In this document: positions 1 through 62,971 of the stretch, piece after piece
Position numbering within the stretch: the stretch's first letter is position 1
How the letters are laid out: each line of letters starts with the position of its first letter
From: Vogesella sp. XCS3
GTDB taxonomy: Bacteria > Pseudomonadota > Gammaproteobacteria > Burkholderiales > Chromobacteriaceae
Reading direction: 5' to 3'
Length of the DNA: 64,000 nt
NCBI RefSeq assembly: GCF_020616155.1
Contig: NZ_CP085530.1
Span: 619,501-683,500 of the forward strand
The notes under the pieces: generated by a model
Told to the model about the DNA's origin: nothing
Database searches by the model: none
What the model saw: the letters and a program-made list of their open reading frames with translations, nothing else
Program-made: the position numbers and the translations under genes

Positions 1-282
1 CGGCAGGGCTTCCAGTACCGCTTTTACGGCGGCGGGCAGGCCGCGCAGGCTCTTCAGTTTTTTCTTGTAGCCAGCCAGCTCGGCTGGGTTGGGCAGCTTG
101 CCGTGCACTAGCAGGTAGGCCACTTCTTCGAATTCACAGTGGGCGGCCAGGTCCAGGATGTCGTAGCCGCGGTAGTGCAGGTCGTTGCCGCTGCGGCCAA
201 CGGTGCACAGGGCGGTGTTGCCGGCCGCTACGCCGGACAGGGCGACGGATTTTTTCGGTTTGCCAATCACTACTTCACTCAT
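1..282 (-). CDS. prpC: 2-methylcitrate synthase, N-terminal part (cut by window edge)
   Basis: The first 94 codons of a minus-strand gene running off the left edge. The enzyme condenses propionyl-CoA with oxaloacetate in the methylcitrate cycle. The translation starts MSEVVIGKPKKSVALSGVAA and continues with GNTALCTVG and DLHYRGYDI, the N-terminal signature of the PrpC branch of citrate synthases. The start at 282 is preceded by an AGGAGA ribosome binding site. It lies 143 bases downstream of prpB on the same strand, the usual prpBC order. Catalytic His and Asp residues lie outside the window. A copy of the dispersed 9-mer (192-200) falls in codons for VGRS. Confidence 0.9.
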   Translation of the reverse strand, partial: MSEVVIGKPKKSVALSGVAAGNTALCTVGRSGNDLHYRGYDILDLAAHCEFEEVAYLLVHGKLPNPAELAGYKKKLKSLRGLPAAVKAVLEALP

Positions 283-425
283 GCCACTTCTCCTTTGTGC
301 TGCCGTTCCCGTATGCGGGCGGCCTGCTGTGTCATTGCGGCGGGGCCGCGATCGTGAACCGGGTGCAGGGCTGGCCAGACTCTCTGTGTTATGTGTGGCG
401 TGCGGCCAACCCTGCTAAAGGTGAT

Positions 426-1304
426 TTACTTGTTTTTGCCTTCGGCGAACAGGGCGTCCAGCTTTTGCTCGTAGTCGTGGTAGCCCAGGTGGTCGTACAA
501 GTCCATGCGGGTCTGCATGGTATCCACCACGTTTTTCTGGCTGCCGTCGCGGCGGATGGCGCCGTACACGTTCAGCGCGGCCTGGCTCATGGCGCGGAAG
601 GCGGACAGCGGGTACAGCACCAGGCCCACGCCGTTGGCGCCCAGCTCTTCGGTGGTGTACAGCGGGGTGGCGCCAAACTCGGTGATATTGGCCAGAATCG
701 GCACTTTTACGGCCTCGGCAAACTGCTTGTACATGGCCAGGTCGGTGATGGCTTCCGGGAAGATCATGTCGGCGCCGGCTTCCACGCAGGCCACGGCACG
801 CTCGATGGCAGCGTCCAGGCCTTCTACGGCGAGCGCGTCGGTGCGGGCCATGATCACCATGCCGTGTTTGCGGGCATCGACTGCAGCTTTGACACGGTCG
901 ACCATTTCTTCCTGGCTGACGATGGCTTTATTCGGGCGGTGGCCGCAGCGTTTCTGTTGCACCTGGTCTTCGATGTGCACGGCAGCAGCACCGGCTTTTT
1001 CCAGGCTGCGCACGGCGCGGGCGATGTTGAAGGCGCCGCCCCAGCCGGTATCGATGTCCACCAGCAGTGGCAGTTTGCTGGCGTCTGTAATGCGGCGCAC
1101 GTCGATCAGCACGTCTTCCAGTGTGGTGATGCCCAGGTCGGGAATGCCGCAGGAGCAGGCGGCTACGCCGCCGCCGGACAGGTATAGCGCTTTGAAGCCG
1201 CTATGCTCGGCCAGGCGAGCAGCGTAGGCGTTGACTGCGCCCACCACTTGCAGGGGTTTTTCTTGGGCTACCGCGTCGCGGAAGCGTTGACCGGGTGTCG
1301 TCAT
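426..1304 (-). CDS. prpB: 2-methylisocitrate lyase
   Basis: 292 residues, the usual length. It cleaves 2-methylisocitrate to pyruvate and succinate, the last step of propionate breakdown. It belongs to the ICL/PEP mutase TIM-barrel family. Visible are the metal-binding region [10 protein letters not shown] (about 81-89), HIEDQ (110-114) and the catalytic KRCGH loop (118-122; Cys120 is the expected catalytic residue). An AGGAG-type site precedes the ATG. It is followed by prpC, so it is the first visible gene of a prp operon; a PrpR-type regulator is not in the window. Isocitrate lyase is less likely because of the short length and the KRCGH context. Confidence 0.95.
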
Positions 1305-2210: not shown

Positions 2211-2699
2211 ATGAAAGAAACCCTTTCTTCCCTGATGGATGGCGAACTGAGCGACAAGGACGCCGCTCAGGCCATGCAAATGCTGGGTAACGACGACCAG
2301 CTCAAGGCCGCCTGGCAGGAATATCACCTGATTGGTGATGCCCTGCGTGGCAATGCCCTGCTACAGGTGGACGTGCGCGAACAGGTATCGGTAGCACTGC
2401 AGGCCGAGCCTACCGTGCTGGCGCCACGTAACCTGGCGCGCAAGCCGGCCAGGCCGGTGGCACGCTTTGCCCTGGCGGCTTCGGTAGCGATGGCGGGCGT
2501 GGTGGGCTGGTACAGCTGGCAAGGCCAGCAGGCTGGCGATCCGGCCCTGATGGCGCAGGCGGTGCCCACGCCGAGTGCCCAGGTGCAAGTCGTGAATGCG
2601 GCCAACCAGTCTTATCTGGATGCGCATCAGGACATCAGCCTGAGCGATGGCCTGGCGCGTGCCAGCCTGGTGCAACCTGCGGCGAAAGGTCTGCATTGA
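2211..2699 (+). CDS. rseA: anti-sigma-E factor RseA
   Basis: 162 residues. The N-terminus (MKETLSSLMDGELSDKDAAQ) is the cytoplasmic sigma-binding domain of the RseA/MucA family. A hydrophobic segment around residues 84-103 (FALAASVAMAGVVGWYSW) is the single membrane span, followed by a short periplasmic tail. Regulated intramembrane proteolysis of this family releases sigma-E. It starts 7 bases after rpoE and overlaps rseB by one base (TGATG), so translation is coupled. The periplasmic part is short and rich in Ala, Gln and Val. Confidence 0.9.
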   Translation: MKETLSSLMDGELSDKDAAQAMQMLGNDDQLKAAWQEYHLIGDALRGNALLQVDVREQVSVALQAEPTVLAPRNLARKPARPVARFALAASVAMAGVVGWYSWQGQQAGDPALMAQAVPTPSAQVQVVNAANQSYLDAHQDISLSDGLARASLVQPAAKGLH

Positions 2700-4117: not shown

Positions 4118-5523
4118 TTGTCTCTTCCATGATGGTGGCCGGCCTGCTGGGCGGCTCAGCCCCCCTGATGGCCGCCCCGCAACTGGCGCTGCCGGATTTC
4201 ACCCAGCTGGTGGAAAACCAGGGTCGTGCCGTCGTTAACATTCGTACCGTGCAAACCGTGCGTGAAGTGGTGCGTGACGTGCCGGAAGGCATGGAAAACG
4301 ACCCGTTTGCCGAATTTTTCCGCCGTTTTGCCCCGCCACAGCTGCGTGAGTACCGTACCGGTGGCATGGGTTCCGGCTTTATCCTGTCTGCCGACGGTTA
4401 TGTGCTGACCAATGCGCATGTGATCGCTGATGCCGACGAAATGATCGTGACGCTTAATGACAAGCGTGAGTACAAGGCCAAGGTGGTGGGCTCCGATGCC
4501 CGCACCGACGTGGCGTTGCTGAAAATCGACGCCACCGGCCTGCCGTTTGTGAAGCTGGGCAAGGTAGAGCAGCTCAAAGTGGGCGAGTGGGTGCTGGCCA
4601 TCGGCTCGCCGTTTGGCTTCGACAATACCGTTACCTCGGGCATCGTGTCGGCCAAGGGTCGTCATCTGCCAGATGAGTCTTACGTGCCGTTCATCCAGAC
4701 CGATGCGGCGGTCAACCCAGGCAACTCGGGCGGCCCACTGTTCAACCTCAAAGGCGAGGTAGTCGGTATCAACTCGCAGATTTACAGCCGCTCCGGCGGC
4801 TTCATGGGTATTTCGTTTGCCATTCCGGTAGACGTGGCGCTGGATGTGGCCGAGCAGCTCAAAAAGAACGGCAAGGTCAGCCGTAGCCGTATTGGTGTGT
4901 CAATCCAGGATGTGTCCAAGGAGTTGGCCGCATCTTTTGGTTTGCAGGATGCCCAGGGTGCGCTGATTACCTCGGTAGAAAAAGAAGGCCCGGCAGCCAA
5001 AGCTGGCGTACGCGCCGGCGATGTAGTCCTGCAGGTGGGCGGCAAGGCAGTGGATAGCAGCGAAGACCTGCCGCGCTTGTTGGGCGGGGTATTGCCTGGC
5101 AGTAAGGTGGAGCTGGGTGTGTGGCGTGGCCGCGCGCTGGTGAAAGTGGCGCTGGTGACGGCCGAAATGCAGGACGAAGACCCGCGTACGGCCGAGCGCG
5201 CCTACAAGGGCAAGCAGGAAGGCGGCCAGGATGAGGTTGGCACCACGACCGGTCTCGCCTTGCAAGCGGTAGCCCCGGCCTTGTTGCAGAAGCTTGGCGT
5301 GAAGTTTGGCCTGGCGGTGCGTGGCGCCACCGGCCCGGCACTGAAGGCCGGCATGCAGCAGGGTGATGTGATTGTCGGGGTGGGCGGGGAAGAGCTGCAG
5401 TCTGCCCGCCAGCTGGTGCAAGCCATCCAGGCAGTCAAGCCGGGTGATGCCTTGGCCTTGCGTGTGCTGCGTGACGGTGCGCCACTGTTTGTTGCCCTGA
5501 AACCCGAGAAGAAAACCCGTTGA
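4099..5523 (+). CDS. mucD: periplasmic serine endoprotease DegP/MucD (HtrA family)
   Basis: 474 residues. A signal peptide (about 1-26, ending LMAA) precedes a trypsin-like domain with the triad His107 (LTNAHVIA), Asp137 (ARTDVALLKID) and Ser210 (NPGNSGGP), followed by two PDZ domains (about 255-345 and 375-465). It degrades misfolded envelope proteins; in Pseudomonas mucD sits at the end of the same algU-mucABC operon. The start at 4099 lies inside rseC and gives a complete signal peptide; upstream in-frame starts would extend into rseC coding sequence. A dispersed 9-mer copy is at 4924. Confidence 0.95.
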   Translation: MPIKKLIVSSMMVAGLLGGSAPLMAAPQLALPDFTQLVENQGRAVVNIRTVQTVREVVRDVPEGMENDPFAEFFRRFAPPQLREYRTGGMGSGFILSADGYVLTNAHVIADADEMIVTLNDKREYKAKVVGSDARTDVALLKIDATGLPFVKLGKVEQLKVGEWVLAIGSPFGFDNTVTSGIVSAKGRHLPDESYVPFIQTDAAVNPGNSGGPLFNLKGEVVGINSQIYSRSGGFMGISFAIPVDVALDVAEQLKKNGKVSRSRIGVSIQDVSKELAASFGLQDAQGALITSVEKEGPAAKAGVRAGDVVLQVGGKAVDSSEDLPRLLGGVLPGSKVELGVWRGRALVKVALVTAEMQDEDPRTAERAYKGKQEGGQDEVGTTTGLALQAVAPALLQKLGVKFGLAVRGATGPALKAGMQQGDVIVGVGGEELQSARQLVQAIQAVKPGDALALRVLRDGAPLFVALKPEKKTR

Positions 5524-8970: not shown

Positions 8971-8973
8971 ACT

Positions 8974-12415: not shown

Positions 12416-12810
12416 TGATTTACGGCATCGGCACCGATATGGCGCGCATCGCGCGCTTTCAGGTCATGCTGGACCGCTGGGGCCTGCGTGCCGGCCGCCG
12501 CTTGCTGGCGCCGGTAGAGCAGGCTGAGCTGGCCGCTGCGGCCAACCCGGCGCGCCTGCTAGCCAAGCGCTTTGCCGCCAAAGAGGCGCTGTCCAAGGCG
12601 CTGGGCACCGGCGTGCGCGAACCGGTGCTGCTGACCGCCATCGCCGTGAGCCACGACGCGCTGGGTAAACCGATGTTTGCCTTTGACGATGCGCTGCATG
12701 CGTTTCTGCGCGAGCGCGGCATCAGCCGCGTGCATTTGTCGATTACCGACGAGGCCGAGCACGCACTGGCTTTTGTGGTGTGTGAAACCGGCCTTGCGGC
12801 CAACCTATAG
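12415..12810 (+). CDS. acpS: holo-acyl carrier protein synthase
   Basis: 131 residues. It transfers phosphopantetheine from CoA to acyl carrier protein. The metal ligand Asp8 lies in [15 protein letters not shown] and the second motif is [16 protein letters not shown]. The start overlaps the pdxJ stop (TAATG). Two dispersed 9-mer copies lie in this gene (12537 and 12795). Confidence 0.95.
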
Positions 12811-12819: not shown

Positions 12820-13908
12820 ATGACTCAAACCGTTCTGCCGCGCGGCCCAGTAATGGCCGACGTTGCCGGCTTCCGCCTCAGCGACGATGAAAAACAACGC
12901 CTGTGTCACCCGCTGGTGGGCGGCGTCATCCTGTTCCGCCGCAACTTCGACAGTGTCGAGCAGCTGAAGGCACTGACCGCCGAGATTCGTGCGCTGCGCC
13001 AGCCAGAGCTGCTGATTGCCGTCGATCACGAAGGCGGCCGCGTGCAGCGGTTCCTGGCCGGCTTTACCCGCCTGCCGCCGATGCGGGTGCTGGGCGAGCT
13101 GTGGGACGCGCAAGGCCAGGCCGTGGCCGAAGCGGCAGCCGAGGAAACCGGCTATGTGCTGGCCGCCGAGCTGCGCGCCTGCGGCGTGGATCTGAGCTTC
13201 ACCCCGGTGCTGGACCTGGACTGGCAGCACTGCGCTGTCATCGGCAACCGCAGTTTCCATGGTGACCCGGCGGTAGTGATTGCGCTGGCCAGCGCGCTGC
13301 AGCGCGGCCTGAACCGTGGTGGTATGGGCAGCTGTGGCAAGCACTTTCCAGGCCACGGCTTTGTCGATGGCGACACCCACGTGGCCATGCCGCAGGACCC
13401 GCGTAGCCTGGACGATATCCGCGCTGCCGACCTGAAACCGTTTGCCGCCCTGGCCGCCAGCGGTATGAAGGCGGTGATGCCCGCGCACGTGATCTACCCG
13501 CAAGTGGACGACACCTCGGCCGGTTTCTCGCGCATCTGGCTGCAAGGCATCCTGCGCGGCGAGCTCGGTTTTGACGGCACCATTTTCAGCGACGACCTGA
13601 CCATGGAAGGCGCGGCCGGCGCCGGCGATATCGTGGCGCGTACCGAGCGCGCGTTTGCCGCCGGTTGCGATATGGCCCTGGTGTGTAACCGCCCCGACCT
13701 GGTGGACGATTTGCTGGCCAGGTTGGCCGCACCGGTGCAGCCACAGCTGGCGCAGCGCCTGCAGGCCATGGCCGGGCAGGGTGTGCCCGAGGAGTGGGAA
13801 GCGCGGGTAGCCGCTAGCGCGTTTGCTGACGTTGCCGCACGCGTAGGTGCGCTGGCCGTGCCGCCGCAGCAGTTGGCCGCAGCGCCGCAAGTAGGCGAGG
13901 CACACTAA
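12820..13908 (+). CDS. nagZ: beta-N-acetylhexosaminidase, GH3 family
   Basis: 362 residues. The cytoplasmic enzyme removes GlcNAc from recycled anhydro-muropeptides. Motifs are LLIAVDHEGGRVQRF, the catalytic His loop GKHFPGHGFVDGDTH and the nucleophile Asp in FSDDLTMEGA. No signal peptide is present. It closes the lepA-to-acpS operon, 9 bases after acpS, and is followed by hairpins. Codons AGG-TTG-GCC-GCA at 13720-13731 are set by a dispersed 9-mer copy. Confidence 0.95.
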   Translation: MTQTVLPRGPVMADVAGFRLSDDEKQRLCHPLVGGVILFRRNFDSVEQLKALTAEIRALRQPELLIAVDHEGGRVQRFLAGFTRLPPMRVLGELWDAQGQAVAEAAAEETGYVLAAELRACGVDLSFTPVLDLDWQHCAVIGNRSFHGDPAVVIALASALQRGLNRGGMGSCGKHFPGHGFVDGDTHVAMPQDPRSLDDIRAADLKPFAALAASGMKAVMPAHVIYPQVDDTSAGFSRIWLQGILRGELGFDGTIFSDDLTMEGAAGAGDIVARTERAFAAGCDMALVCNRPDLVDDLLARLAAPVQPQLAQRLQAMAGQGVPEEWEARVAASAFADVAARVGALAVPPQQLAAAPQVGEAH

Positions 13909-17638: not shown

Positions 17639-18007
17639 ATGAGTGATTTGCGTGTGAGCTGTACCGAGTGCGGCGCGTGCTGTTCTGCGTTTCGCGTGTC
17701 TTTCCACCGCAGCGAGTTGGCCGCAGATGGGCAGCCTGGCGTGCCTGCGGACATGGCCGTGCACGAGGTAGGCAATACCTGGCGCATGGCGGGTACCGAC
17801 GATAGTGCTGCCGACGGCCAGCCGCCGCGCTGTGTGGCACTGTGTGGCACGGTAGGCGAGGCGGTGAGCTGCCGCATCTACGACCAGCGTCCGTCGCCCT
17901 GTCGCGAGTTTGGCGCGCTGGCCAGCGTGGGCATTTACGAAGCCGCCTGTAACCGCGCCCGCGCCCGCCATGGCTTGCCACGGCTGAAGGTGGACGATAG
18001 CTGGTGA
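17639..18007 (+). CDS. YkgJ family cysteine cluster protein
   Basis: 122 residues. The N-terminal CTECGACCSAFRVSFH (Cys8, 11, 14, 15) and later CRIYDQRPSPCREF match the zinc- or iron-binding YkgJ family (CxxCxxCC plus distal Cys). Function is unsettled; some relatives modify or bind metal. The ATG at 17639 is chosen because the Cys motif must lie close to the N-terminus. A dispersed 9-mer copy (17717) encodes LAA. Confidence 0.85.
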   Translation: MSDLRVSCTECGACCSAFRVSFHRSELAADGQPGVPADMAVHEVGNTWRMAGTDDSAADGQPPRCVALCGTVGEAVSCRIYDQRPSPCREFGALASVGIYEAACNRARARHGLPRLKVDDSW

Positions 18008-20520: not shown

Positions 20521-21520
20521 CGGATTCGTTAAAGCTCAAGGTGATGTCCAGGGTATGGGCTACCGGGCCTTCTATCTGGGCCAGCAGTTTTTCCAGTGCC
20601 TGCGCGGCAGGCTTTTCGCGGCTGCTATTGCCGTTTTGTGCCAGATTTTCTGGCAGTTTTTCCAGTGCGGCGGCCACCGCCAGCGTGGCGTCTTGCAGGG
20701 CCCGGGCTTGCGCTGGCTGGCCTTTGGCTTGTAGCAGGCTGCTAATGCCAGGCTGGGTCTGGTTGCCGGCAAGCACGGTTTGCAGCAGGCTGAACTGGGC
20801 TTTCAGCAGGGCGCGGCCTTCACCGCTACGCTGCGCGTTCACCAGCTCGGTTTTTTGCTGCGGCAGGCGCGAGATTTCCTTGTGCATCTCGTTGACGCCG
20901 GCCAGGGTCAGGTTGATGACCTCTTCCAGTGGCTGGCTGGCGCTGGCGTACTGGGCGCCGGGTTGGCCGTTACGGCTCAGGTTGGCCGCAAAGTCTTGCC
21001 AGGCTTGTAGCAGCGCCGGGGTGTGGCCGGCAATCTCCTGGCCATTCTGTTGCAGCCAGGCGCATCGTGCGGCATCGCCCAGGTTTTTCTGTTGCGAGAA
21101 CAGCTGGTATTCGATGGCGGCAAAGCCTTTAGCGGCGGCGCCAGCTTCTTCATAGCTGTCTTTGCTGCGGCCCAGGTTTTCGCTAACCGCTTGTTCGATC
21201 AGTGCGGCGCGTGCTGGTTTGAAGGCAATGACGCGCTGGCTGCGTAGCTCGGCGGTTGGCCCCCAGTTCAGTGGGGCAACGGCCATCCAGCTGCGGTAAC
21301 TTTGTCGCCATTGTTCGCGTGCACTGGCCAGGTTGGCTGCACTGTTGTCCTGGCATAGTTTGGCCAGGCTCTGGTTTAACGCCTGGCTTTGCTGGTTCAG
21401 TGTGCTGTAGCGGGGCAGCAGGGTGTGCTGTGCGAGGCTGTCGATGAATGTCTGCTCGGCACTGGCGGCGTGGGCGAGCGGTGCGGCCAGTAGCAGGGTG
21501 GCCAGCAGGGTGCGGGACAT
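20510..21520 (-). CDS. imelysin-family periplasmic protein, variant motif
   Basis: 336 residues with a signal peptide (about 1-18, ending AHA). The fold is helical, with SWMAVAPLNWGPTAELRSQR and GFAAIEYQLF matching the shorter imelysin-like copy found in these clusters. The hallmark GxHxxE of imelysins is GFAAIE here: the Gly and Glu remain but the His is Ala. It may bind metal differently or play a structural role. Third gene of the minus-strand cluster. Confidence 0.8.
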   Translation of the reverse strand: MSRTLLATLLLAAPLAHAASAEQTFIDSLAQHTLLPRYSTLNQQSQALNQSLAKLCQDNSAANLASAREQWRQSYRSWMAVAPLNWGPTAELRSQRVIAFKPARAALIEQAVSENLGRSKDSYEEAGAAAKGFAAIEYQLFSQQKNLGDAARCAWLQQNGQEIAGHTPALLQAWQDFAANLSRNGQPGAQYASASQPLEEVINLTLAGVNEMHKEISRLPQQKTELVNAQRSGEGRALLKAQFSLLQTVLAGNQTQPGISSLLQAKGQPAQARALQDATLAVAAALEKLPENLAQNGNSSREKPAAQALEKLLAQIEGPVAHTLDITLSFNESDGD

Positions 21521-39024: not shown

Positions 39025-39043
39025 GTTGGCCGCAAGCCAAGAC

Positions 39044-43223: not shown

Positions 43224-44396
43224 ATGAACTGCCTGCCTGCTACCGAAGCCATTTTATCCCGATTGTTATCGTTCGACACTACCAGCCGTGGCTCAAATCT
43301 GGCGCTTATTGAGTGGGTGGCAGGCTGGCTTGAGCAGTATGGTGTGCTTAGTACGCTCACATTTAATGATGAAAAAACCAAGGCGAATTTGTTCGCCCAT
43401 TTGGGCGATACGTCGCTGCCTGCGGTGGTGCTGTCGGGGCATACCGATGTGGTGCCGGTAGATGGCCAGCAATGGCACTATCCCCCCTTTGACATGACGG
43501 TTCATGATGGCTTGGTTTACGGCCGCGGTAGCGCGGACATGAAAGGGTTTATTGCGTGCGTGTTGGCCGCAGTGCCGCGCTGGCAGCAGCTGGCCGCTGA
43601 CGGGGTAATGACACGTAGCCTTGGCATTGCGCTTTCGTACGACGAAGAGATCGGTTGTCTGGGGGTAGGCCGGCTGATTGATGACTTGCTGGCGCGCCAG
43701 GTGCCGGTGGCGGGTTGCATTATCGGCGAGCCCACCATGATGCGCCCGGTGATTGCGCACAAGGGTATTGCACATTATCGCGTGCATGTGCGCGGCCGCG
43801 CAGCGCATTCATCACTTACCCCGCAAGGCGTAAATGCAATCGAGTACGCGGCACGGCTGGTAACGCATATCCGCAAGCTGGCCGATGCTGAACAGTCCTT
43901 TGGCAGCCGCCACCCGCTGTACGATGTGCCGTTTGCCACGCTGCAAACCGGGCTGATCAAGGGTGGTAATGCGGCCAACATCGTGCCCAAGGACTGCGAG
44001 TTTGTGTTTGAGGTGCGTTGGTTGCCGGGCGATGTGCACGAGCGCTTTGTGGCGTCGGTCAAAGACTATGCGCAGGTGCTGCTGGCAGAGATGCAGCAAG
44101 TAGCACCAGAGGCAGATATCCAGTTTGAAGCATTGGTCAATTGCCCGCCGTTTGAATACTCGCCAGGTAGCGAAATTACCCGCCATGTGGAGGCGCTATG
44201 CCTGGGTTGCAGCCATGATGCCGTGGCGTATACCACCGAGGCCGGGCGCTTTCACGAGGCCGGCATCCCCTGTGTGGTGTGCGGGCCGGGTTCGATCGAA
44301 CAGGCGCACCGCCCGGACGAGTTTGTCAGCCAGGCGCAGCTGGCTGCTTGCGATGCCTGGCTCGACCAGCTGTTCTTGCGCCTGAAACAGGCGTAA
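43224..44396 (+). CDS. argE: acetylornithine deacetylase
   Basis: 390 residues, M20 metallopeptidase family. It releases ornithine from N-acetylornithine. Metal ligands: His and Asp in LSGHTDVVPVDG, Asp in YGRGSADMKGF, Glu-Glu in SYDEEIGCLGVG, Glu in IIGEPTMM, and a late His in EQAHRPDEF. The dimerisation lid carries RGRAAHSSLTPQGVNAIEYA. ArgE is favoured over DapE by length and the GCLGVGR context. Confidence 0.9.
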   Translation: MNCLPATEAILSRLLSFDTTSRGSNLALIEWVAGWLEQYGVLSTLTFNDEKTKANLFAHLGDTSLPAVVLSGHTDVVPVDGQQWHYPPFDMTVHDGLVYGRGSADMKGFIACVLAAVPRWQQLAADGVMTRSLGIALSYDEEIGCLGVGRLIDDLLARQVPVAGCIIGEPTMMRPVIAHKGIAHYRVHVRGRAAHSSLTPQGVNAIEYAARLVTHIRKLADAEQSFGSRHPLYDVPFATLQTGLIKGGNAANIVPKDCEFVFEVRWLPGDVHERFVASVKDYAQVLLAEMQQVAPEADIQFEALVNCPPFEYSPGSEITRHVEALCLGCSHDAVAYTTEAGRFHEAGIPCVVCGPGSIEQAHRPDEFVSQAQLAACDAWLDQLFLRLKQA

Positions 44397-45934: not shown

Positions 45935-45967
45935 AAAGGTTGGCCGCAGTGTGCGGCCAACCTTTTT
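45935..45967 (+). terminator. terminator formed by two inverted copies of the dispersed motif
   Basis: AAAGGTTGGCCGCA (45935-45948), a GTG loop, TGCGGCCAACCTTT (45952-45965) and a T-rich tail. Fourteen perfect pairs. Each arm is a full copy of the window-wide motif. Confidence 0.93.
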
Positions 45968-50109: not shown

Positions 50110-50679
50110 TTACCCTTGGTTGCCCGGCTGGCTACGCTTTAGCTGTAACCGTAGGCAATCGTGACGGGTGTGGATGGCGGCAATGCGCCAGCCTGACAAG
50201 GGCTGGTGGCCCAGAACGGTGGCGTTCAGCCAGTGCTGTACGGCGGGGATGTCGCGCCAGTGCAGGGTGAGGTATTGCCGGTCAATGACTAGCCATGGCA
50301 GCGGTGCGGCCAACCTTTGCAGCAGGCGCGTAGCCAGCCCGCTATTGGCCGCCAGGCTGGCCACTTTGCCTAGCAGGTGCCCACGCAAACTGGGCTGGCT
50401 GTCATCAGCTTGCAGGCGGTAGCGTAGGCGCAGGCTGTCGTTGTCTGAGGTAACGGGGTCGGGCTGGCAATGCAGCTGCAAGATGGTGGGGGTAGGGTGC
50501 TGTATTTTCAGCCAGAACACTGCGCCGTATTCGTCCAGTAGAAGGTCTTCGATGGTCAGTTCGTCGCTGTCCAGCCAGCTTTTGAGCTGTTTTAGTAGCA
50601 GGGCGGCGGGCAGGCTGATGCCGTCGCGGTGCAGGCGCGGGCGGTAGCGTTGCCAGTTTTGCCAGCGCTGGTGCCACAT
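50110..50679 (-). CDS. hypothetical soluble protein, 189 residues
   Basis: Not recognised. No signal peptide. It is rich in Leu, Arg and Trp, with HRDGISLPAALLLKQLKSWL near the start, then DELTIEDLLLDEYGAVFWLK. Codons AGG-TTG-GCC-GCA (near 50305-50315) follow the dispersed motif, as in two other genes. Three bases from the NlpC/P60 gene on the same strand, so probably cotranscribed with it and uup. Confidence 0.6.
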   Translation of the reverse strand: MWHQRWQNWQRYRPRLHRDGISLPAALLLKQLKSWLDSDELTIEDLLLDEYGAVFWLKIQHPTPTILQLHCQPDPVTSDNDSLRLRYRLQADDSQPSLRGHLLGKVASLAANSGLATRLLQRLAAPLPWLVIDRQYLTLHWRDIPAVQHWLNATVLGHQPLSGWRIAAIHTRHDCLRLQLKRSQPGNQG

Positions 50680-51225: not shown

Positions 51226-53141
51226 GCCTGCTTGGCCTCCAGTGCTTCCCAGCGTTCCAGTTTTTCCAGTAGCAGCAGGTCGATTTCCTCGATGCGAGCC
51301 TGCCAGCCGCGTGCTTCCAGCGGGGCGCTGCGGTAGGCGTTGGGGTCGAGCAGTTTTTCATTCAACTGGGCTTGTTCGCTTTCCAGGTCGGCGATCTCTT
51401 GTGGCAGACGCTCCAGCTCGCGTTTTTCGTTAAAGCTGAGCTTTTGTGTGCGGGCGCTACGATCACGTTCCGGCTTGGCGTCCGGGTTGGCCGCATGATT
51501 GTCTTTGCGCGCCGGGGCTTCCTGCTTCATGGCGGCCATGCGTGCTTTGGTGTCTACCCAGTCCTGATAGCCGCCCGGGTATTCTTCCAGCCGGCCTTCG
51601 CCTTCAAACGCAATGACCTGGGTGACGACGTTATCCAGGAAGGCGCGGTCGTGGCTCACCACAAATACGGTGCCGGTGTATTGCTCGATCAGCTCTTCCA
51701 GCAGCTCCAGGGTGTCGATGTCCAGGTCGTTGGTGGGTTCGTCCAGCACCAGCACGTTGGCCGGGCGGGTAAACAGGCGGGCCAGTAGCAGGCGGTTGCG
51801 CTCGCCACCGGACAGCGAGCGCACCGGGCTGCGCGAGCGCTGCGGCGAGAACAGGAAGTCTTCCAGGTAGCTCATCACGTGCTTTTTCTGGCCGCAGATG
51901 TCTACAAAGTCGTTGCCCTGACTGATGATGTCGGCCACGCTGGTTTCTTCGTCCAGCTGGGTGCGGAACTGGTCGAAGTAGGCCACTTCCAGCTTGCTGC
52001 CGCGTTTGATGCTGCCGCTGTCGGCTTCCAGCTCGCCCAGGATCAGCTTGAGTAGCGTGGTTTTGCCCGCGCCATTGGGGCCGATCAGGCCGATTTTGTC
52101 GCCGCGCAAAATGCGGCTGGTAAAGTTCTTGATCAGCGTGCGGCCTTCAAAACCCTTGCTGACGTGCTCCAGCTCGGCCACCAGCTTGCCGGAGCGCTCG
52201 CCGGCGTCCAGCTGGAAGTTCACCTGGCCCACGCGTTCGCGGCGGGAGGCGCGCTGGCGGCGGATTTCTTCCAGCCGACGTACACGGCCCTCGTTGCGGG
52301 TGCGGCGCGCTTCGATGCCTTTGCGGATCCACACCTCTTCCTGGGCGTGAAATTTGTCGAAAATGCGGTTTTGTTCTTCTTCTACGGCCAGTTCTTCGGC
52401 TTTGCGCACCTGGTAGGCGCCAAAGCTACCCGGATAGCTGCGCAGCAGGCCGCGATCCAGCTCGATGATGCGGGTGGCGATGTTGTCCAGGAAGCGGCGA
52501 TCGTGGGTGATCAGCAGCACGCTGCCGGCAAAATTCTTGATCAGGCCTTCCAGCCACTCGATGGCGCTCATGTCCAGGTGGTTGGTGGGTTCGTCCAGCA
52601 GCAGCACGTCGGGGCGCGAGGCCAGCGCGCGCGCCAGGGCGACGCGCTTTTTCCAGCCGCCGGACAGCTCGCTCACCAGCGTGTCGGCATTCAGGCCCAG
52701 GTGGGACAGGGTGGTGCTGATCAGGGCGTCGAACTGCCAGCCGTCGTGGGCTTCCAGCGCGTGCTGGATGTCGGTCATGCGTGCCAGCACGTCTTCATGG
52801 TTGGCCGCAGGGTCCGAGAGCTGCTGCGTCAGGTGGTGGTAGTCGGTCAGCAGGGCTTTGAGCGCGCCCAGGCCTTCGGCGACGGCTTCGAATACGGTGT
52901 GCCCGTCGGTAAATACCGGTTCTTGCGGTACGTAGGCTACCTTGATATCGCTTTGCTGGATGATGCGGCCATCGTCCAGCTTGACGGTGCCGGCAATGGC
53001 TTTCAGCAACGATGATTTGCCAGCGCCGTTGCGGCCGATCAGGCCGACGACCTCGCCGCTTTCCAGCGAGAAATCCACTTTGTCCAGCAGGGCGTGGTGC
53101 CCGAAGGCGAGGCAAGCGTTATCTACGGTAATCAGGGCCAT
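51222..53141 (-). CDS. uup: ABC-F ATPase Uup
   Basis: 639 residues, two ABC domains with no membrane part. Walker A GLIGRNGAGKSS and GLIGPNGAGKTT; signatures LSGGWKKR and LSGGERNR; Walker B LLLDEPTNHLD and LVLDEPTNDLD. The C-terminal extension after about 545 is the Uup coiled-coil domain (ELERLPQEIADLESEQAQLN). It acts on DNA or ribosomes and limits transposon excision in E. coli. Copies of the dispersed motif at 51487 and 52801. Confidence 0.93.
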   Translation of the reverse strand: MALITVDNACLAFGHHALLDKVDFSLESGEVVGLIGRNGAGKSSLLKAIAGTVKLDDGRIIQQSDIKVAYVPQEPVFTDGHTVFEAVAEGLGALKALLTDYHHLTQQLSDPAANHEDVLARMTDIQHALEAHDGWQFDALISTTLSHLGLNADTLVSELSGGWKKRVALARALASRPDVLLLDEPTNHLDMSAIEWLEGLIKNFAGSVLLITHDRRFLDNIATRIIELDRGLLRSYPGSFGAYQVRKAEELAVEEEQNRIFDKFHAQEEVWIRKGIEARRTRNEGRVRRLEEIRRQRASRRERVGQVNFQLDAGERSGKLVAELEHVSKGFEGRTLIKNFTSRILRGDKIGLIGPNGAGKTTLLKLILGELEADSGSIKRGSKLEVAYFDQFRTQLDEETSVADIISQGNDFVDICGQKKHVMSYLEDFLFSPQRSRSPVRSLSGGERNRLLLARLFTRPANVLVLDEPTNDLDIDTLELLEELIEQYTGTVFVVSHDRAFLDNVVTQVIAFEGEGRLEEYPGGYQDWVDTKARMAAMKQEAPARKDNHAANPDAKPERDRSARTQKLSFNEKRELERLPQEIADLESEQAQLNEKLLDPNAYRSAPLEARGWQARIEEIDLLLLEKLERWEALEAKQA

Positions 53142-53657: not shown

Positions 53658-54092
53658 ATGCACCGCACGCACATTCCGCCTTTTGCGGCCAATCTGGCTA
53701 CCAGCTGGCTGGCTTGCGGGGTATTGCTGCTGATGTGGCTGGTTTTGCTGGCGGCGCTAAGCGTGCTGGATGGCCAGTCCCGGCTGGTCTTGCTGCTGTG
53801 TGGTGTGATGGCCAGTGTGTCCTTGCTGCGCAGTAGCGGTATGGCCGGGCGGCGCGGCAGCTTTTCGGTAGATGCCCGCGGTGCCTGCCATCTGCAGCTG
53901 CTGCGGGTGGCCGTGTTGCCCGCCAGTGTGGCGCTACCCTGGCTGGTGCTGCTGCGCGGCAGAACGGCCGATAAAAAAGATCTGACCCTGCTGGTGTGGC
54001 GCGATGCCGTGCCGGCAGACACGCACCGGGCGCTGCGTGTGTACGTGCAGTGGTGCCGCACGGCAGCGGCCAACCTTGCTGAAGAAGAGTAG
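53658..54092 (+). CDS. YgfX-like membrane protein
   Basis: 144 residues with two close hydrophobic spans (about 18-36 and 40-56). The tail LTLLVWRDAVPADTHRALRV resembles YgfX/CptA (toxCPA) family proteins, usually near sdhE or other partners. Here it lies before folC, 13 bases after the small acidic gene. Assignment is tentative. A dispersed 9-mer copy is at 53684 and a near copy close to the 3' end. Confidence 0.5.
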   Translation: MHRTHIPPFAANLATSWLACGVLLLMWLVLLAALSVLDGQSRLVLLLCGVMASVSLLRSSGMAGRRGSFSVDARGACHLQLLRVAVLPASVALPWLVLLRGRTADKKDLTLLVWRDAVPADTHRALRVYVQWCRTAAANLAEEE

Positions 54093-55394: not shown

Positions 55395-56279
55395 ATGGCA
55401 CTTTCCACCCATGACGAACTGCTGTTGCTGCGCAAGCGGGCGCGCCGCCGCCTGGTGGGCGCCATTGTGATGGTGAGCTTGTCGACAGCGGTGCTGTGGA
55501 ATGTGGTGGATGCCTTGCCGGAGCAGGCCATGAAGCCGGAGGCGGTGGATATTACCGGCCTGCAGGCTGCCTCGCAGCCAGCCGCCGTAGTGGCGCCAAC
55601 GCCACCGCCTGCCGTGGCATCGCAGCCGGTGACCGACTTGCTGGCCACCTTGCCACCGGATGAGCCTGAGGCCGCCTCGCAGCCGGCGGTAAAGCCGCCA
55701 GTGGCGCTGGCCAAGCCGCCTGTGGCACCGCCGGTGCCGGCCGTTATTGCCCCTGCGCCAGCTGTGGCGCCTATTGCCAAGCCCGAGGTGAAGCCGGAGA
55801 CCAAGCCATTGCCCAAGCCTGAGCTGCCTGTGGAGCCTAAACCGCAGGCCAAGCCCAAAGCGGAGGTCAAGGCCGAAGCCAAAGTCGAGCCTAAACCTGT
55901 AGCCAAGGAGCCGGCAAAAGACAGCAAGCCCAAGCCTGCCGCCGAGAAAAAAGCTGCCGACCCGATGGCCATTCTGGAAGGCCGCGAGTCTGCCCATGCC
56001 GAGCCGGCCAAACCGGCAAAAGATAATGCAGCGGATGCGTCGCCAAGCAAGAAATTCAGTATTCAGCTAGCGGCGCTGTCCGACCCGCAAAAAGTGGATG
56101 CTTTGCGCAGCAGGTTGGCCGCAGCCGGCGTCAGCGCCCGTTTCAGCAAGGTGCAAACCAGCAAGGGCGAGGTTACCCGCGTGCGCGTAGGGCCGTTCAA
56201 GTCGCGTGAAGAGGCGGATGCTGCCATGCGTCGCCTCAGCAAGGCCGGTGTTACCGGCATTGTGGTGGGGGCGGAATGA
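55395..56279 (+). CDS. SPOR-domain membrane protein (DedD-like)
   Basis: 294 residues. One span (about 20-38), a long Pro/Ala/Lys/Val-rich linker (about 60-210, many KP and PA repeats), and a C-terminal SPOR domain (FSIQLAALSDPQKVDALRSR ... RVRVGPFKSREEADAAMRRL). SPOR domains bind glycan strands lacking stem peptides at the division septum. Overlaps cvpA by four bases. folC-dedD-cvpA-purF is a standard gene order. A dispersed motif copy sets AGG-TTG-GCC-GCA at 56112-56123. Confidence 0.9.
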   Translation: MALSTHDELLLLRKRARRRLVGAIVMVSLSTAVLWNVVDALPEQAMKPEAVDITGLQAASQPAAVVAPTPPPAVASQPVTDLLATLPPDEPEAASQPAVKPPVALAKPPVAPPVPAVIAPAPAVAPIAKPEVKPETKPLPKPELPVEPKPQAKPKAEVKAEAKVEPKPVAKEPAKDSKPKPAAEKKAADPMAILEGRESAHAEPAKPAKDNAADASPSKKFSIQLAALSDPQKVDALRSRLAAAGVSARFSKVQTSKGEVTRVRVGPFKSREEADAAMRRLSKAGVTGIVVGAE

Positions 56280-56761
56280 CCTGGCTGGACTACCTGATTC
56301 TGGCGTTGATTGCCGGCTCTATCATGTTGTCACTGTTTCGCGGGTTGGCCGCAGAGGTGCTTTCGCTGTTTTCCTGGCTGATTGCGTTCTGGGCGGCGCG
56401 CAGCCTGTCGCCGCTGGTTGCCGAATTCATGCCTTTACCCGGTGATGGCTTGCGCCTGGTAGCGGCATTCCTGCTGTTGCTGGTGGGCGTCTGGTTGCTG
56501 GCGGGTGTCTTGCGTGCCTCGCTCACCGTGATGCTGGATGCGGTAGGCCTGGGTGGCGTGAACCGCTTCATGGGTGCTGTGTTTGGTCTGGTGCGCGGTA
56601 TGTTGCTGGTGACGGTGGTGATGATTATGGGCGGTTTGAGCAATTTGCCGCAGTCGCCAGGCTGGCAGAATGCCTTGCTGGTGGCGCCGTTCCAGGCAGT
56701 GGCTTTGGCTGCCAAGCCATGGTTGCCGGATACGCTGGCGCAGAAAATGAAGTTTACTTAG
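56276..56761 (+). CDS. cvpA: CvpA family membrane protein
   Basis: 161 residues, four membrane spans, matching the colicin V production accessory family (LDYLILALIAGSIMLSLFRG, FWAARSLSPLVAEFM, GLVRGMLLVTVVMIMGGLS). CvpA is needed for envelope robustness in enterics. Immediately followed by a hairpin and purF. A dispersed motif copy at 56345. Confidence 0.9.
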   Translation: MTWLDYLILALIAGSIMLSLFRGLAAEVLSLFSWLIAFWAARSLSPLVAEFMPLPGDGLRLVAAFLLLLVGVWLLAGVLRASLTVMLDAVGLGGVNRFMGAVFGLVRGMLLVTVVMIMGGLSNLPQSPGWQNALLVAPFQAVALAAKPWLPDTLAQKMKFT

Positions 56762-58398: not shown

Positions 58399-58429
58399 AC
58401 AAGGGTTGGCCGCAGCGGCCAACCCTTGT
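58399..58429 (+). terminator. terminator built on the dispersed motif
   Basis: ACAAGGGTTGGCCGC / GCGGCCAACCCTTGT, 15-base complementary arms around a single A. The left arm has a full 9-mer, the right arm one mismatch. T-rich but interrupted tail. Confidence 0.75.
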
Positions 58430-58472: not shown

Positions 58473-59654
58473 ATGTCCAGTGATGACCCTTGTCTGAGCC
58501 TGCACCCTGAAACCCTGGCCATCCGGGCTGGTCGCGAGACTAGCGAATACCGCGAACATAGCCAGAGCCTGCAGCTTACTTCCAGTTTTACCTTTGACAG
58601 CGCAGCCCAGGCTGCCGCCATGTTCCTGGGTGAAATCGACGGCTTTACCTACTCCCGCTTTACCAACCCCACCGTGTCGGCATTCCAGCAGCGCCTTGCC
58701 GCCATGGAAGGCGCCGAGCGTGCGGTAGCGACCTCTACCGGCATGGCGGCAATTCAGGCCACCATGCTGACGCTGCTGAAAAGTGGCGATCACATCGTTT
58801 CTTCGCGCAGCCTGTTTGGTTCCACCATCAACCTGTTCAATGGGGTGCTGGCCAAGTTTGGCGTAGAAACCAGCTATGTGGATGCGGCCAACCTGGACGC
58901 CTGGCGCGCGGCCATCAAGCCCAATACCAAGGTGTTTTTCCTGGAGACACCCTCCAACCCGCTTACTGATCTGGCGGACATCGCGGCAGTGGCCGCTATC
59001 GCACATGAGGCAGGGGCCTTGCTGGTAGTGGATAACTGTTTCTGCTCGCCAGCGCTGCAACAGCCCATCAAGCTGGGTGCTGACCTGGTCGTGCATTCGG
59101 CTACCAAATACCTGGACGGCCACGGCCGCGTGATGGGTGGTGCGGTGGTGGGGAGCGACAAGCTGGTCGAGCAGGTGTACCTGCACGTTCGTACAGCTGG
59201 ACCATCGCTGGCACCATTCAATGCCTGGGTATTGCTATCCGGGCTGGAGACGCTGCACCTGCGCATGGAAAAGCACTCCGCCAACGCGCTGGCACTGGCG
59301 CAGTGGCTGCAGCAACAGCCTGCCGTGGAAAAGGTGTTCTACCCGGGCTTGCCCGACCATCCGCACTACGAGTTGGCACAGCGCCAGCAGAAAAGTGGCG
59401 GGGCGGTGCTGTCGTTCCAGGTAAAAGGCGGGCGAGAAGCTGCCTGGAAGGTAGTAGATGCCATCCAGCTGATTTCCCGTACGGCCAACCTTGGGGACGT
59501 CAAAACCACACTGACCCACCCGGCATCTACTACTCATGCGCGTATTACCCCGGAGGCTCGTGCCAATGCGGGCATTACCGAAGGTTTGCTGCGTGTGGCG
59601 GTGGGGTTGGAGCACATAGAAGACCTGAAAGCAGATTTGCTGCGCGGTCTGTAA
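58473..59654 (+). CDS. metZ: O-succinylhomoserine sulfhydrylase
   Basis: 393 residues from ATG 58473 (a GTG five codons upstream is possible). PLP enzyme of the Cys/Met metabolism family; it makes homocysteine directly from O-succinylhomoserine and sulfide. The PLP Lys is in HSATKYLDGHGR; the opening ETLAIRAGRETSEYREHSQS is MetZ-like rather than MetB or MetC. Follows purF, as in Pseudomonas and many beta-proteobacteria. Confidence 0.92.
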   Translation: MSSDDPCLSLHPETLAIRAGRETSEYREHSQSLQLTSSFTFDSAAQAAAMFLGEIDGFTYSRFTNPTVSAFQQRLAAMEGAERAVATSTGMAAIQATMLTLLKSGDHIVSSRSLFGSTINLFNGVLAKFGVETSYVDAANLDAWRAAIKPNTKVFFLETPSNPLTDLADIAAVAAIAHEAGALLVVDNCFCSPALQQPIKLGADLVVHSATKYLDGHGRVMGGAVVGSDKLVEQVYLHVRTAGPSLAPFNAWVLLSGLETLHLRMEKHSANALALAQWLQQQPAVEKVFYPGLPDHPHYELAQRQQKSGGAVLSFQVKGGREAAWKVVDAIQLISRTANLGDVKTTLTHPASTTHARITPEARANAGITEGLLRVAVGLEHIEDLKADLLRGL

Positions 59655-60480: not shown

Positions 60481-60517
60481 TTGACTTTTCACAGGGTCAA
60501 CACGAGGGTTAACCATA

Positions 60518-62971
60518 ATGACATCTGCCGTTATTCTCGTCCTGCTGATTGGCGCGCTGGCTTACTTCCGCGCGCCTGTCATTGCCTGGACTATCGCCAT
60601 CGCAGGCTGGATCGCCAGCCTGCAGTTCGCCTGGGGTTGCCAGGTTCCTGTTGCCGTATGGGCCGTTTTCGGCGTCATTGCGGCAGTACTGAACCTTACC
60701 CCGCTGCGCCGAGCCGTGTTTACCGGCCCGGTGTTCTCCATCTTCAAGAAGATTACCCCTGCCATGTCCCAGACAGAGCAGGAAGCGATCAACGCCGGTA
60801 CCGTGTGGTGGGATCGCGACCTGTTCTCCGGCAAGCCGGACTGGAACCGTCTGCTGTCCTTCCCGGATCCTAAGCTCACCGCCGAAGAACAGGCTTTCAT
60901 TGATGGCCCGACCGAAGCGCTGTGCAAAATGATCGACGACTGGAAGATCACGCACGAGCTGAAAGATCTGCCGCCAGAAGTGTGGCAGTTCATCAAAGAC
61001 CAGGGTTTCCTGGGCATGATCGTCAAAAAGAAATATGGCGGTCTGGAATTCTCCAACTACGCACACGCCAAGGTGGTGACCAAGATCGCTACCCGCGGTG
61101 GTACGGCGGCAGTATCTGTTATGGTGCCGAACTCGCTCGGCCCTGGTGAGCTGCTGCAACACTACGGCACTGAGGCGCAGAAAGACTACTACCTGCCGCG
61201 TCTGGCTAAAGGTGTGGATGTGCCGTGCTTTGCCTTGACCAGCCCGTACGCTGGCTCTGATGCGGGTGCCATCCCTGACTTTGGCGTGGTATGCCGTGGT
61301 AGCTATACCGACCCGCGCAGCGGCCAACATCACGAGAATGTACTGGGTATCCGCGTGAGCTGGGAAAAACGCTGGATCACCTTGGCGCCGGTTGCCACCG
61401 TGCTGGGCCTGGCGTTCAAAATGTATGATCCGGATCACCTGCTGGGTGACAAGGAAGACATTGGTATCACTTGCGCGCTGGTGCCTACCGAGCACGAGGG
61501 TGTGTGCATTGGCCGCCGTCACTTCCCGGGTGGGGCTGCCTTCATGAACGGCCCGACCTGGGGTAAGGATGTGTTCATTCCGCTGGAGTGGATCATCGGT
61601 GGCCGTGAGTTCGCCGGCCAAGGCTGGCGCATGCTGGTCGAATGCCTGTCGGTTGGCCGCTGCATCTCGCTGCCGGCCATGTCGGTTGCTTCCGGCAAGG
61701 TCGCTTCCTACACCACTGGCGCTTATGCCCGTATCCGTGACCAGTTCGGCTTGTCTATCGGCAAGTTTGAAGGTGTAGATGAAGCCATGGCGCGTATCGG
61801 TGGCTTTACCTACCAGATGGAAGCATCGCAAGACCTGGCGCTGACCGGCCTGGATATTGGCGAGAAACCATCCGTGTTGTCTGCCGTGCTGAAGTACCAC
61901 AATACCGAGCGCATGCGCAAAACGCTGAATGATGCGATGGACGTGCATGGCGGCAAGGCTGTGGTGCTGGGTCCGCGTAACTATCTGGCACGTGCTTATC
62001 AGGCGATTCCGATTGCCATCACGGTAGAGGGCGCCAACATCCTGACGCGCTCCATGATCATCTATGGTCAGGGTGCCATCCGTTGCCATCCGTTTGTGCT
62101 GCGTGAAATGAAAGCCGCCATGGCTAATGATGGCGCCGAGTTTGACAAGGCCATTACTGGCCATATCAACTTCGTGATCAGCAACGTATTCCGTTCGCTG
62201 TGGATGGGTCTGACGGGTGCCAAGTTTGTTGGCAGCCCGAAGAGTGGGGATGTGGCAACGTACTACAAACAGCTGACACGTTTCTCCAGCGCTTTTGCCC
62301 TGCTGTCCGATATGGCCATGTTCAGTCTGGGTGGCTCGCTGAAGTTCCGCGAAAAACTGTCTGCCCGTCTGGGTGACATGCTGTCCAATCTGTACATTGC
62401 TTCTGCTTGCCTGAAGCGCTTCGAGCGTGATGGCGCCCAGAAGGAAGACCTGCCGGTACTGAAGTGGGCGGTAGAGACGGCTTTGTACGACCTGCAACAG
62501 GCGATGGACGGCTTCCTGGCTAATCTGCCAAGCCGCATGTTGGCCGCAGTGCTGCGCAAGGTGATCTTCCCGTGGGGTCTTACCCTGAAGCCAGCCAGCG
62601 ATCGTATCGGCACCCAGGTTGCCCGTAGCTTGATGGAGCTGGGCCCGACGCGTACTCGCCTGACCAAGGGCATGTTTTTTTCTGCTGATGAAACCGACCC
62701 GGTAGGTGTGCTGGAGCCGGCACTGAAGGCGATGCTGGAAACCGAACCGGTAGAGCAGAAACTGCGCAAGCTGGGTCGCGATGGCAAGTTCAAGACCATC
62801 ACCGCGCGTGAGCGCCTGGCGGAAGCGCTGGCCAGTGGCATCATCACTCAGCCAGAGTTCGACGCGGTAACGCGTGCACGCAAACTCAAGCGTGACGTCA
62901 TCATGGTGGACGACTTCGACATGAAGATGGAGCACCACGACGAGCAATTGCTGCAGCGACTGATTTTCTGA
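60518..62971 (+). CDS. fadE: acyl-CoA dehydrogenase FadE
   Basis: 817 residues, FadE length (about 800), with the N-terminal hydrophobic segments (about 4-30, 42-60) of FadE, then the acyl-CoA dehydrogenase domain (TSPYAGSDAGAIPDFG; GGVGFQ-like GRNYLARAYQ), and DUF1974 C-terminal part. It carries out the first step of beta-oxidation. GAGGG lies upstream of ATG 60518. A dispersed motif copy is at 62540. Confidence 0.93.
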   Translation: MTSAVILVLLIGALAYFRAPVIAWTIAIAGWIASLQFAWGCQVPVAVWAVFGVIAAVLNLTPLRRAVFTGPVFSIFKKITPAMSQTEQEAINAGTVWWDRDLFSGKPDWNRLLSFPDPKLTAEEQAFIDGPTEALCKMIDDWKITHELKDLPPEVWQFIKDQGFLGMIVKKKYGGLEFSNYAHAKVVTKIATRGGTAAVSVMVPNSLGPGELLQHYGTEAQKDYYLPRLAKGVDVPCFALTSPYAGSDAGAIPDFGVVCRGSYTDPRSGQHHENVLGIRVSWEKRWITLAPVATVLGLAFKMYDPDHLLGDKEDIGITCALVPTEHEGVCIGRRHFPGGAAFMNGPTWGKDVFIPLEWIIGGREFAGQGWRMLVECLSVGRCISLPAMSVASGKVASYTTGAYARIRDQFGLSIGKFEGVDEAMARIGGFTYQMEASQDLALTGLDIGEKPSVLSAVLKYHNTERMRKTLNDAMDVHGGKAVVLGPRNYLARAYQAIPIAITVEGANILTRSMIIYGQGAIRCHPFVLREMKAAMANDGAEFDKAITGHINFVISNVFRSLWMGLTGAKFVGSPKSGDVATYYKQLTRFSSAFALLSDMAMFSLGGSLKFREKLSARLGDMLSNLYIASACLKRFERDGAQKEDLPVLKWAVETALYDLQQAMDGFLANLPSRMLAAVLRKVIFPWGLTLKPASDRIGTQVARSLMELGPTRTRLTKGMFFSADETDPVGVLEPALKAMLETEPVEQKLRKLGRDGKFKTITARERLAEALASGIITQPEFDAVTRARKLKRDVIMVDDFDMKMEHHDEQLLQRLIF

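Follow-up and report, generated by a model that had tools for sequence, protein, structure and literature searches.

A putative DNA uptake sequence with a CCG core in Vogesella sp. XCS3 and related genera

Introduction

A 64-kb stretch of the Vogesella sp. XCS3 chromosome (contig NZ_CP085530.1, positions 619,501 to 683,500; C1:619501-683500 in the coordinates used here, and hereafter called the window) contains a short word repeated so often that an initial annotation took it for a word serving uptake or recombination in a lineage outside the classical Neisseriaceae. This raised the questions of whether the excess is real, how far it extends, and whether the word resembles the DNA uptake sequences (DUS) of the Neisseriaceae. 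Counts over the genome (3.89 Mb, two contigs) confirmed that the over-represented word is real and genome-wide, and our computational tests support the reading first proposed for it. Judging from sequence comparisons, the word very likely works like a DUS, and we consider it highly probable that the genus Vogesella uses AG-GTTGGCCGCA as its DNA uptake sequence, a tag for self-recognition in natural transformation like that of the Neisseriaceae.

Abundance and form of the word

In the window, 38 copies of the 9-mer TTGGCCGCA (24 plus, 14 minus) were found versus 2.2 expected, and none of 100 dinucleotide shuffles of the window contained at least 38. The strong excess noticed initially is thus real, although the 37 copies (23 plus, 14 minus) given then become 38 and the expectation of about one becomes 2.2. 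At least one G precedes 34 of the 38 copies, which are therefore copies of the 10-mer GTTGGCCGCA; GG stands in front of 21, and 13 are the full 12-mer AGGTTGGCCGCA (0.02 expected), both figures as first reported. The copies are listed below, with the peptide spelled (LAA, VGR, AAN or RPT, in one-letter code) where assigned.

192..201, minus, 10-mer, in gene, VGR frame
401..410, minus, 10-mer, intergenic
2597..2606, minus, 10-mer, in gene, antisense, AAN
4923..4932, plus, 10-mer, in gene, LAA
5732..5741, plus, 10-mer, in predicted gene, LAA
10584..10595, plus, 12-mer, intergenic, directly 3' of era
12537..12546, minus, 10-mer, in gene, antisense, AAN
12795..12806, minus, 12-mer, in gene, antisense, AAN
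13720..13731, plus, 12-mer, in frame AGG-TTG-GCC-GCA
13872..13881, plus, 10-mer, in gene, LAA
16123..16132, plus, 10-mer, in gene, LAA
16336..16347, minus, 12-mer, in gene, antisense, AAN
17716..17725, plus, 10-mer, in gene, LAA
20391..20400, minus, 10-mer, in gene, VGR
20979..20990, plus, 12-mer, in gene, antisense, AAN
22820..22828, plus, 9-mer without leading G, in gene, inverted partner of 22845
22845..22856, minus, 12-mer, in gene, VGR, inverted partner of 22820
25044..25055, plus, 12-mer, in gene, antisense, RPT
26377..26386, plus, 10-mer, in gene, LAA
30143..30152, plus, 10-mer, in gene, antisense, AAN
33421..33429, plus, 9-mer without leading G, intergenic
36157..36166, plus, 10-mer, in gene, VGR
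39025..39034, plus, 10-mer, intergenic
39948..39959, minus, 12-mer, in frame AGG-TTG-GCC-GCA
43562..43571, plus, 10-mer, in gene, LAA
43970..43979, minus, 10-mer, in gene, antisense, AAN
45937..45948, plus, 12-mer, left arm of intergenic inverted pair
45952..45963, minus, 12-mer, right arm of the same pair
50305..50316, minus, 12-mer, in frame AGG-TTG-GCC-GCA
51486..51495, plus, 10-mer, in Uup-like gene, antisense, AAN
52800..52809, plus, 10-mer, in Uup-like gene, antisense, AAN
53684..53692, minus, 9-mer without leading G, in gene
56112..56123, plus, 12-mer, in frame AGG-TTG-GCC-GCA
56344..56353, plus, 10-mer, in gene, LAA
57826..57834, plus, 9-mer without leading G, in gene
58405..58414, plus, 10-mer, intergenic
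58883..58894, minus, 12-mer, in gene, antisense, AAN
62539..62548, plus, 10-mer, in gene, LAA

Genome-wide, the 10-mer occurs 2,279 times (1173 forward, 1106 reverse), on the chromosome once per ~1.6 kb, and the 12-mer 799 times (410 forward, 389 reverse), versus 11 (8+3) and 0 for the reversed controls. Form and placement were studied in a 681-kb chromosome sample made up of the window and 31 further stretches, with 418 copies of the 10-mer; here the 12-mer was present 133 times versus 0.27 expected, and the top over-represented 9-mers were pieces of AGGTTGGCCGCA. Single changes at positions 2 to 7 of the 10-mer yielded counts of 0 to 1.7 times expectation, and those at positions 8 and 9 of 0.5 to 5.2 times, with no count above 10. 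At position 1 a C variant is kept (26 copies, 4.7 times expectation), and position 10 is permissive (G 92, C 62, T 31). Positions -1 and -2 show a graded preference, with A at -2 and G at -1 each in 54% of the 418 copies; among the 102 intergenic copies A(-3) reaches 60%, A(-2) 66% and G(-1) 77%. Outside a span of about -4 to +13, flanking bases are close to background. The 10-mer GTTGGCCGCA, preceded by a semi-conserved AG, is the better description of the unit.

Placement of the copies

A simple gene finder predicted 627 genes covering 88% of the sample. The 102 intergenic copies correspond to 1.25 per kb versus 0.53 per kb in genes (a 2.4-fold difference), and the 316 genic copies occupy all six frame/orientation classes, in line with the several frames and both gene orientations first described. 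Most of the genic copies fall in three permissive classes (LAA, AAN and VGR), which could speak for an effect of base composition or of codon or codon-pair bias. Nevertheless, the word spelled LAA in 118 of 630 occurrences (4.2 expected), AAN in 190 of 231 (23.6), VGR in 77 of 104 (3.6), RPT in 11 of 22 (0.16) and CGQ in 5 of 8 (1.1), the sole tripeptide reported with no excess in the sample being WPQ (6 of 13 versus 5.6); the word overrides codon usage. In the window, AGG-TTG-GCC-GCA stands in frame four times (13720, 39948, 50305 and 56112) and not three as counted initially, and the forcing of avoided codons seen at that time holds, as the rare TTG (11%) and GCA (11%) are used. A codon-effect word, the over-represented CGAGCTGG, differs in having 266 of its 292 copies in one sense frame and 5 in intergenic DNA, versus 102 of 418 intergenic for the word studied here. 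The excess over expectation together with the codon test rules out chance and composition, and the codon test together with CGAGCTGG rules out codon-pair bias; we give this explanation practically no chance. Both CGAGCTGG and a further over-represented word, TCGTCCAGC, are found almost always in one frame and look like codon or protein effects.

Only 23 close pairs of copies were found in the sample. Among the close intergenic pairs, 16 were inverted and one was direct, versus 2.63 and 2.65 under random placement, where the maximum in 2,000 simulations was 10 inverted pairs. Fifteen of the 16 are on the 3' side of one neighbouring gene or more, versus 73% of random intergenic places. With regard to enrichment near terminators, which the initial annotation had suggested checking, the link of the inverted pairs to gene ends is weak. 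As for the two terminator-like hairpins described in the window, the pair at 45937-45963 is intergenic, with a 14-bp stem followed by a T-run, and folds like a terminator, whereas the pair at 22820/22845 is not a terminator because it lies within a predicted gene. These pairs would favour a dispersed mobile or terminator element, such as a repetitive extragenic palindromic (REP) sequence, a miniature inverted-repeat transposable element (MITE) or a shared terminator stem. That origin is very improbable given that 316 of the 418 copies lie within genes, in every frame, that close pairs are so few, and that no flanking sequence is common to the copies beyond a few bases; the near-background flanks rule out a mobile repeat of the REP or MITE type.

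With respect to the local GC skew, 220 copies lie on the G-rich strand and 185 on the C-rich strand, and their spacing is slightly more even than Poisson (variance/mean 0.87, calculated from printed values). Thousands of evenly spread copies with a tight consensus, nearly absent from the second contig, might also be expected of a word unrelated to uptake, either a Chi-like recombination hotspot or a site for chromosome segregation or nucleoid organisation. Chi and FtsK words, however, are strongly polarised, and the nearly balanced orientation (220:185) rules out a replication-oriented word such as Chi or the FtsK-orienting polar sequences (KOPS). The inverted pairs, the genus-specific dialects in the last two letters and the letter-by-letter similarity to DUS would be unexpected for such sites, and we hold this second alternative to be distinctly unlikely. 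With counts far above expectation, the word is confined to no single protein motif, strand or replication arm, the outcomes that the initial annotation had named as telling against it.

Scarcity in apparently foreign DNA

The second contig (C2, 164.5 kb, G+C 0.52 versus 0.61 for the chromosome) contains four 10-mers, versus 101 at chromosomal density and 0.85 from its own composition. This contig is probably an acquired plasmid. The poorest chromosomal stretch in the sample, C1:1480001-1500000, has four copies in 20 kb, and its last 13 kb are word-free. Of the 12 genes predicted in its last 11 kb, nine were scanned, eight being phage tail- or baseplate-like and one phage DNA methyltransferase-like. 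The second-poorest stretch (L053) has five copies. A map of word density could be used for spotting imported DNA. The word-free part of C1:1480001-1500000 (about 8717-19998 within the stretch) looks like part of a contractile-tail prophage, namely the module for its tail and baseplate.

Conservation of word sites between species

We compared ~21 kb around era in eight sequences of the Vogesella clade, omitting 170 unalignable sites. The aligned word sites comprised 321 that were identical, 15 with one change and 208 with two to eight changes. In close pairs of sequences 82.7% of the word sites were intact and 3.3% had one change (n=150), versus 36.8% and 29.0% of nearby control 10-mers in the same codon phase (n=2,933); in distant pairs the values were 50.0% and 2.5% (n=394) versus 21.8% and 26.3% (n=7,488), all these figures being descriptive only, because pairs were counted in both directions and the species are related. 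Between species, most words are either unchanged or altered at two bases or more, and single-base variants are rare. In the three closer genomes, conservation of third codon positions inside and outside words was 0.98 and 0.82, 0.91 and 0.75, and 0.84 and 0.70, respectively. Across longer distances, word sites turn over.

Distribution and dialects

A 3.9-kb segment with era shares 94% identity with 'Beta proteobacterium L13' and 89% with V. urethralis, in agreement with Vogesella as the genus. In the counts over relatives that the initial annotation had proposed, the word is common to all 13 Vogesella genomes, the present one included, with 680 to 1,095 copies of the 12-mer (CA form), versus 0 to 15 in 24 other genomes of the family and 0 to 5 in 24 genomes of other families. 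In nine sister genera, sampled over 200 kb or, for three of them, 120-140 kb, GTTGGCCGAA was the main word or among the leading words in four, GTTGGCCGAG in one and neither in four; other repeats rank alongside the word in one sample (g2), and a tandem repeat tops the 12-mers in another (g10). The GTTGGCCGAA dialect (AA) is that of Pseudogulbenkiania, Gulbenkiania, JH1-16 and one Aquitalea lineage. Among 35 named genomes, the CA form has 1,871-2,442 copies in all seven of the Vogesella clade, while the AA form has 1,245 in Gulbenkiania mobilis, 893 in Pseudogulbenkiania subflava, 2,168 in 'Neisseriaceae bacterium JH1-16' and, as 10-mers, 1,368 in an Aquitalea-labelled metagenome-assembled genome, unlike the other Aquitalea tested. 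Crenobacter oryzisoli, with 579 AA and 165 AG copies, is an exception to one dialect per species. In the other 23 genomes, which include four Chromobacterium, AP218F, three Aquitalea, Craterilacuibacter, Crenobacter intestini, Paludibacterium and Neisseriaceae, none of the three forms exceeds 55 copies, with reversed controls of up to 40.

Counted as AGGTTGGCCGMR, the word is present in 23 of 37 family genomes (88 to 1,173 copies) and absent from 14 (2 to 22 copies). The Aquitalea genus (g6) is mixed, with the word in one of four genomes, and G017, of the Aquitalea group, has 421 matches. None of the dialects was found in the Chromobacterium, most of the Aquitalea, or the Craterilacuibacter genomes searched. 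Aquitalea and Crenobacter oryzisoli excepted, the dialect is constant within species and follows the phylogeny. In a tree of Era and Rnc, built without seven loci that duplicated or nearly duplicated named ones and with Era only for some taxa, the family was grouped (local support 0.994) beside the Neisseriaceae; the word-bearing lineages were basal and the word-less ones nested, the deeper supports within the family ranging from 0.76 up. The word was probably lost several times (in Chromobacterium, crown Aquitalea, Craterilacuibacter with Crenobacter intestini, and the Paludibacterium group), a number that is only indicative because the tree rests on two genes.

In basal Neisseriaceae and their neighbours we found no intermediate dialects, the loci being too short to exclude weak words. 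The same method recovered the known DUS in Neisseria elongata, Stenoxybacter and Snodgrassella CFCC 13594, and in one C. oryzisoli locus of 20 kb it missed the word known from whole-genome counts. A megablast search against plasmids gave three matches of ~50 bases. Among other repeated words, the top ones of a Chromobacterium-genus genome (G035) are presumably pieces of a type I-F CRISPR repeat (TTTCTAAGCTGCC...GGCAGTGAAC), and in an Aquitalea-genus sample (G030) words made of the 6-base unit CTCTGT lead the repeats, probably from one tandem array.

Comparison with known uptake sequences

According to excerpts of Frye et al. 2013 (PMC3630211), all eight DUS dialects have a CTG core and A at +10, a description restated in 2025 for the eight dialects with CTG (excerpts of PMC12061091). 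In register, all three dialects found here have CCG at +6 to +8, and the AG dialect has G at +10. The word therefore does not belong to the published CTG-core set, and the initial annotation was right that it has no CTG core and that GCCGTCTGAA is absent from the window (0 copies). Nonetheless, in register AGGTTGGCCGAA shares 9 of 12 positions with each of AGGCTGCCTGAA and AGGTCGTCTGAA, a score equalled by 367 of 100,000 composition shuffles in register and by 225 of 20,000 over strands and offsets of -3 to 3. The word reads AGG.TG.C.G.A, as in some Neisseriaceae DUS, and 10 of the 12 letters of AGGTTGGCCGCA are seen at the same position in some known dialect, the new ones being G(+5) and C(+7).

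Like the Neisseriaceae DUS as described in the excerpts of PMC3630211, the Vogesella word is a 10-mer preceded by two semi-conserved bases and present on both strands in about 10^3 copies, with intergenic enrichment, inverted pairs, genus-level dialects and a ComP-family pilin in the genome; it differs in G at +5, C at +7 and a CCG instead of a CTG core. Those excerpts also state that Pseudogulbenkiania NH8B and Chromobacterium have no obvious DUS and that no ComP was found in Chromobacterium violaceum, and they date the origin of DUS to the time after the divergence from this species. Here, unlike in that account, a CCG word is found in the sister family, including Pseudogulbenkiania subflava (strain NH8B itself lies outside the comparison). 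Table S1D of Frye et al. 2013 covers over-represented 10-mers of Pseudogulbenkiania (PMC3630211), and GTTGGCCGAA may be listed there without recognition as a DUS. The literature searched held no paper combining 'DNA uptake sequence' and Vogesella and none with the letters of AGGTTGGCCGCA, and only PMC3630211 combined 'uptake sequence' and Pseudogulbenkiania; for the exact letters of GTTGGCCGAA, the matches listed were all unrelated by title.

The Pasteurellaceae uptake signal sequences (USS), whose Hin-USS has a T-rich extension, are likewise short self-marking words spread genome-wide. Their letters, however, are unrelated, and the flanks of the Vogesella word have no T-rich extension. The USS cores AAGTGCGGT and ACAAGCGGT, as quoted in the excerpts of PMC3630211, do not occur in it.

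A ComP-like pilin as candidate receptor and the origin of the word

The search for a ComP-like minor pilin, proposed in the initial annotation, revealed one in the genome, whose best PDB matches by sequence and predicted fold are the Neisseria ComP structures; Foldseek and VIA both rank ComP 5hz7 first. The family model PF16732 (ComP_DUS) was discarded as receptor evidence, since it matches 39 of 41 relatives whether or not they carry the word, and its best match in the genome is the PilE-type pilin, closest to Pseudomonas PilE; NCBIfam gave generic pilin models only for the ComP-like proteins. This lack of specificity made a hidden Markov model (HMM) of the Neisseria ComP soluble domain necessary, with which the ComP homologues of Vogesella and genera g2-g5 scored 31.6-70.4 bits and the PilE-type paralogue 10.4. 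In genus g10 (G021), a pilin in the set scored 18.6 with this model, and a better candidate from outside that set reached 76 bits in a search with alignment A3, a model built with the word-less G018 and several word-bearing sequences, whose scores are inflated for that reason. Based on these comparisons, the protein is predicted to be a type IV prepilin with the ComP fold.

The likeness to ComP (PDB 2M3K, 5HZ7 and 2NBA; excerpts of PMC4906244) extends to a K-x5/6-W-P-x-L stretch after the helix, in which W and L do not vary across the 14 rows of A3, and to the C-terminal cysteine pair. The 10 family rows have a single pair of the C118/C139 type, one with a further helix cysteine, whereas the four Neisseriaceae rows have four cysteines. 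A structure alignment, A2, comprised 40 of 48 proteins. By best match in sequence and fold, the putative receptor is thus a ComP-family protein without the DD region, and it would be the reader of this word.

In the mechanism that we propose, this surface-exposed type IV minor pilin would bind the word on extracellular DNA, and the tagged DNA, that of kin, would then be pulled through PilQ and passed to ComEC. Recombination of tagged DNA would restore intact words and purge damaged ones, consistent with the comparative data; words would consequently accumulate on both strands where coding allows and be scarce on the second contig and in the prophage.

Several observations weigh against this reading. 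In the four more distant species, third codon positions are about equally conserved inside and outside words, and the first two positions are conserved less well within words than outside them. The word's own CA form matches known DUS at 8 of 12 positions in register, and this spelling alone is weak evidence because 1,802 of 100,000 shuffles, and 1,694 of 20,000 over strands and offsets, reach as much. Concerning the pilin, the C76-C125 pair, that is, the second disulfide, and the long DD-region loop of ComP are absent from the homologue, which is moreover kept in 11 of the 14 word-less family genomes. These last features would fit an uptake sequence read by another pilin, either the FimT-like one encoded just upstream or the PilE-type at C1:112200, the ComP homologue being an ordinary minor pilin. 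The adjoining gene was labelled FimT-like from sequence, with no NCBIfam match at 1e-5, and in other bacteria FimT has been described as a pilin for DNA uptake (excerpts of PMC8897410). Yet among the pilins compared, by the soluble-domain HMM, Foldseek and VIA, the ComP homologue group is the closest to Neisseria ComP, whereas the PilE-type paralogue is closest to Pseudomonas PilE, and we regard another reader as unlikely.

Under the preferred reading, a DUS read by the ComP homologue, the family-wide AGGTTGGCCG(AA/AG/CA) is best read as a CCG-core branch of the DUS language, which probably has a common origin with the CTG-core dialects by way of the ComP receptor. We favour, with some reserve, a scenario in which DUS-guided transformation is older than the Neisseriaceae and the ancestor shared with the sister family already possessed both an AGG..G.C.GAA word and a receptor of the ComP type. 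From it, one line would have come to the CTG core with a two-disulfide ComP. The other would have retained a ComP with a single disulfide and a core of CCG, split into the CA, AA and AG dialects, and repeatedly lost the word without losing the pilin. If this is true, the CTG core is not universal and is one solution reached by a receptor that co-evolves. What is new is a second dialect set, with a CCG core, in a sister family whose simpler ComP homologue is also present in Chromobacterium-genus genomes. The reading of a DNA word by a pilin can be followed here as a natural experiment, with three close dialects, several apparent losses and a receptor that lacks the DD region, and little-studied genera become testable systems of natural transformation.

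Two minor observations concern the pilin genes. A second prepilin cluster, at C1:2519491-2529126, for which we saw no link to the word, adjoins genes resembling a resistance-nodulation-division (RND)-type efflux pump. In P. subflava, one TAG was reported inside the ComP-homologue match (G022:C22:201548-201862); the gene ends at the same coordinate as the match, so that this TAG appears to be its own stop codon.

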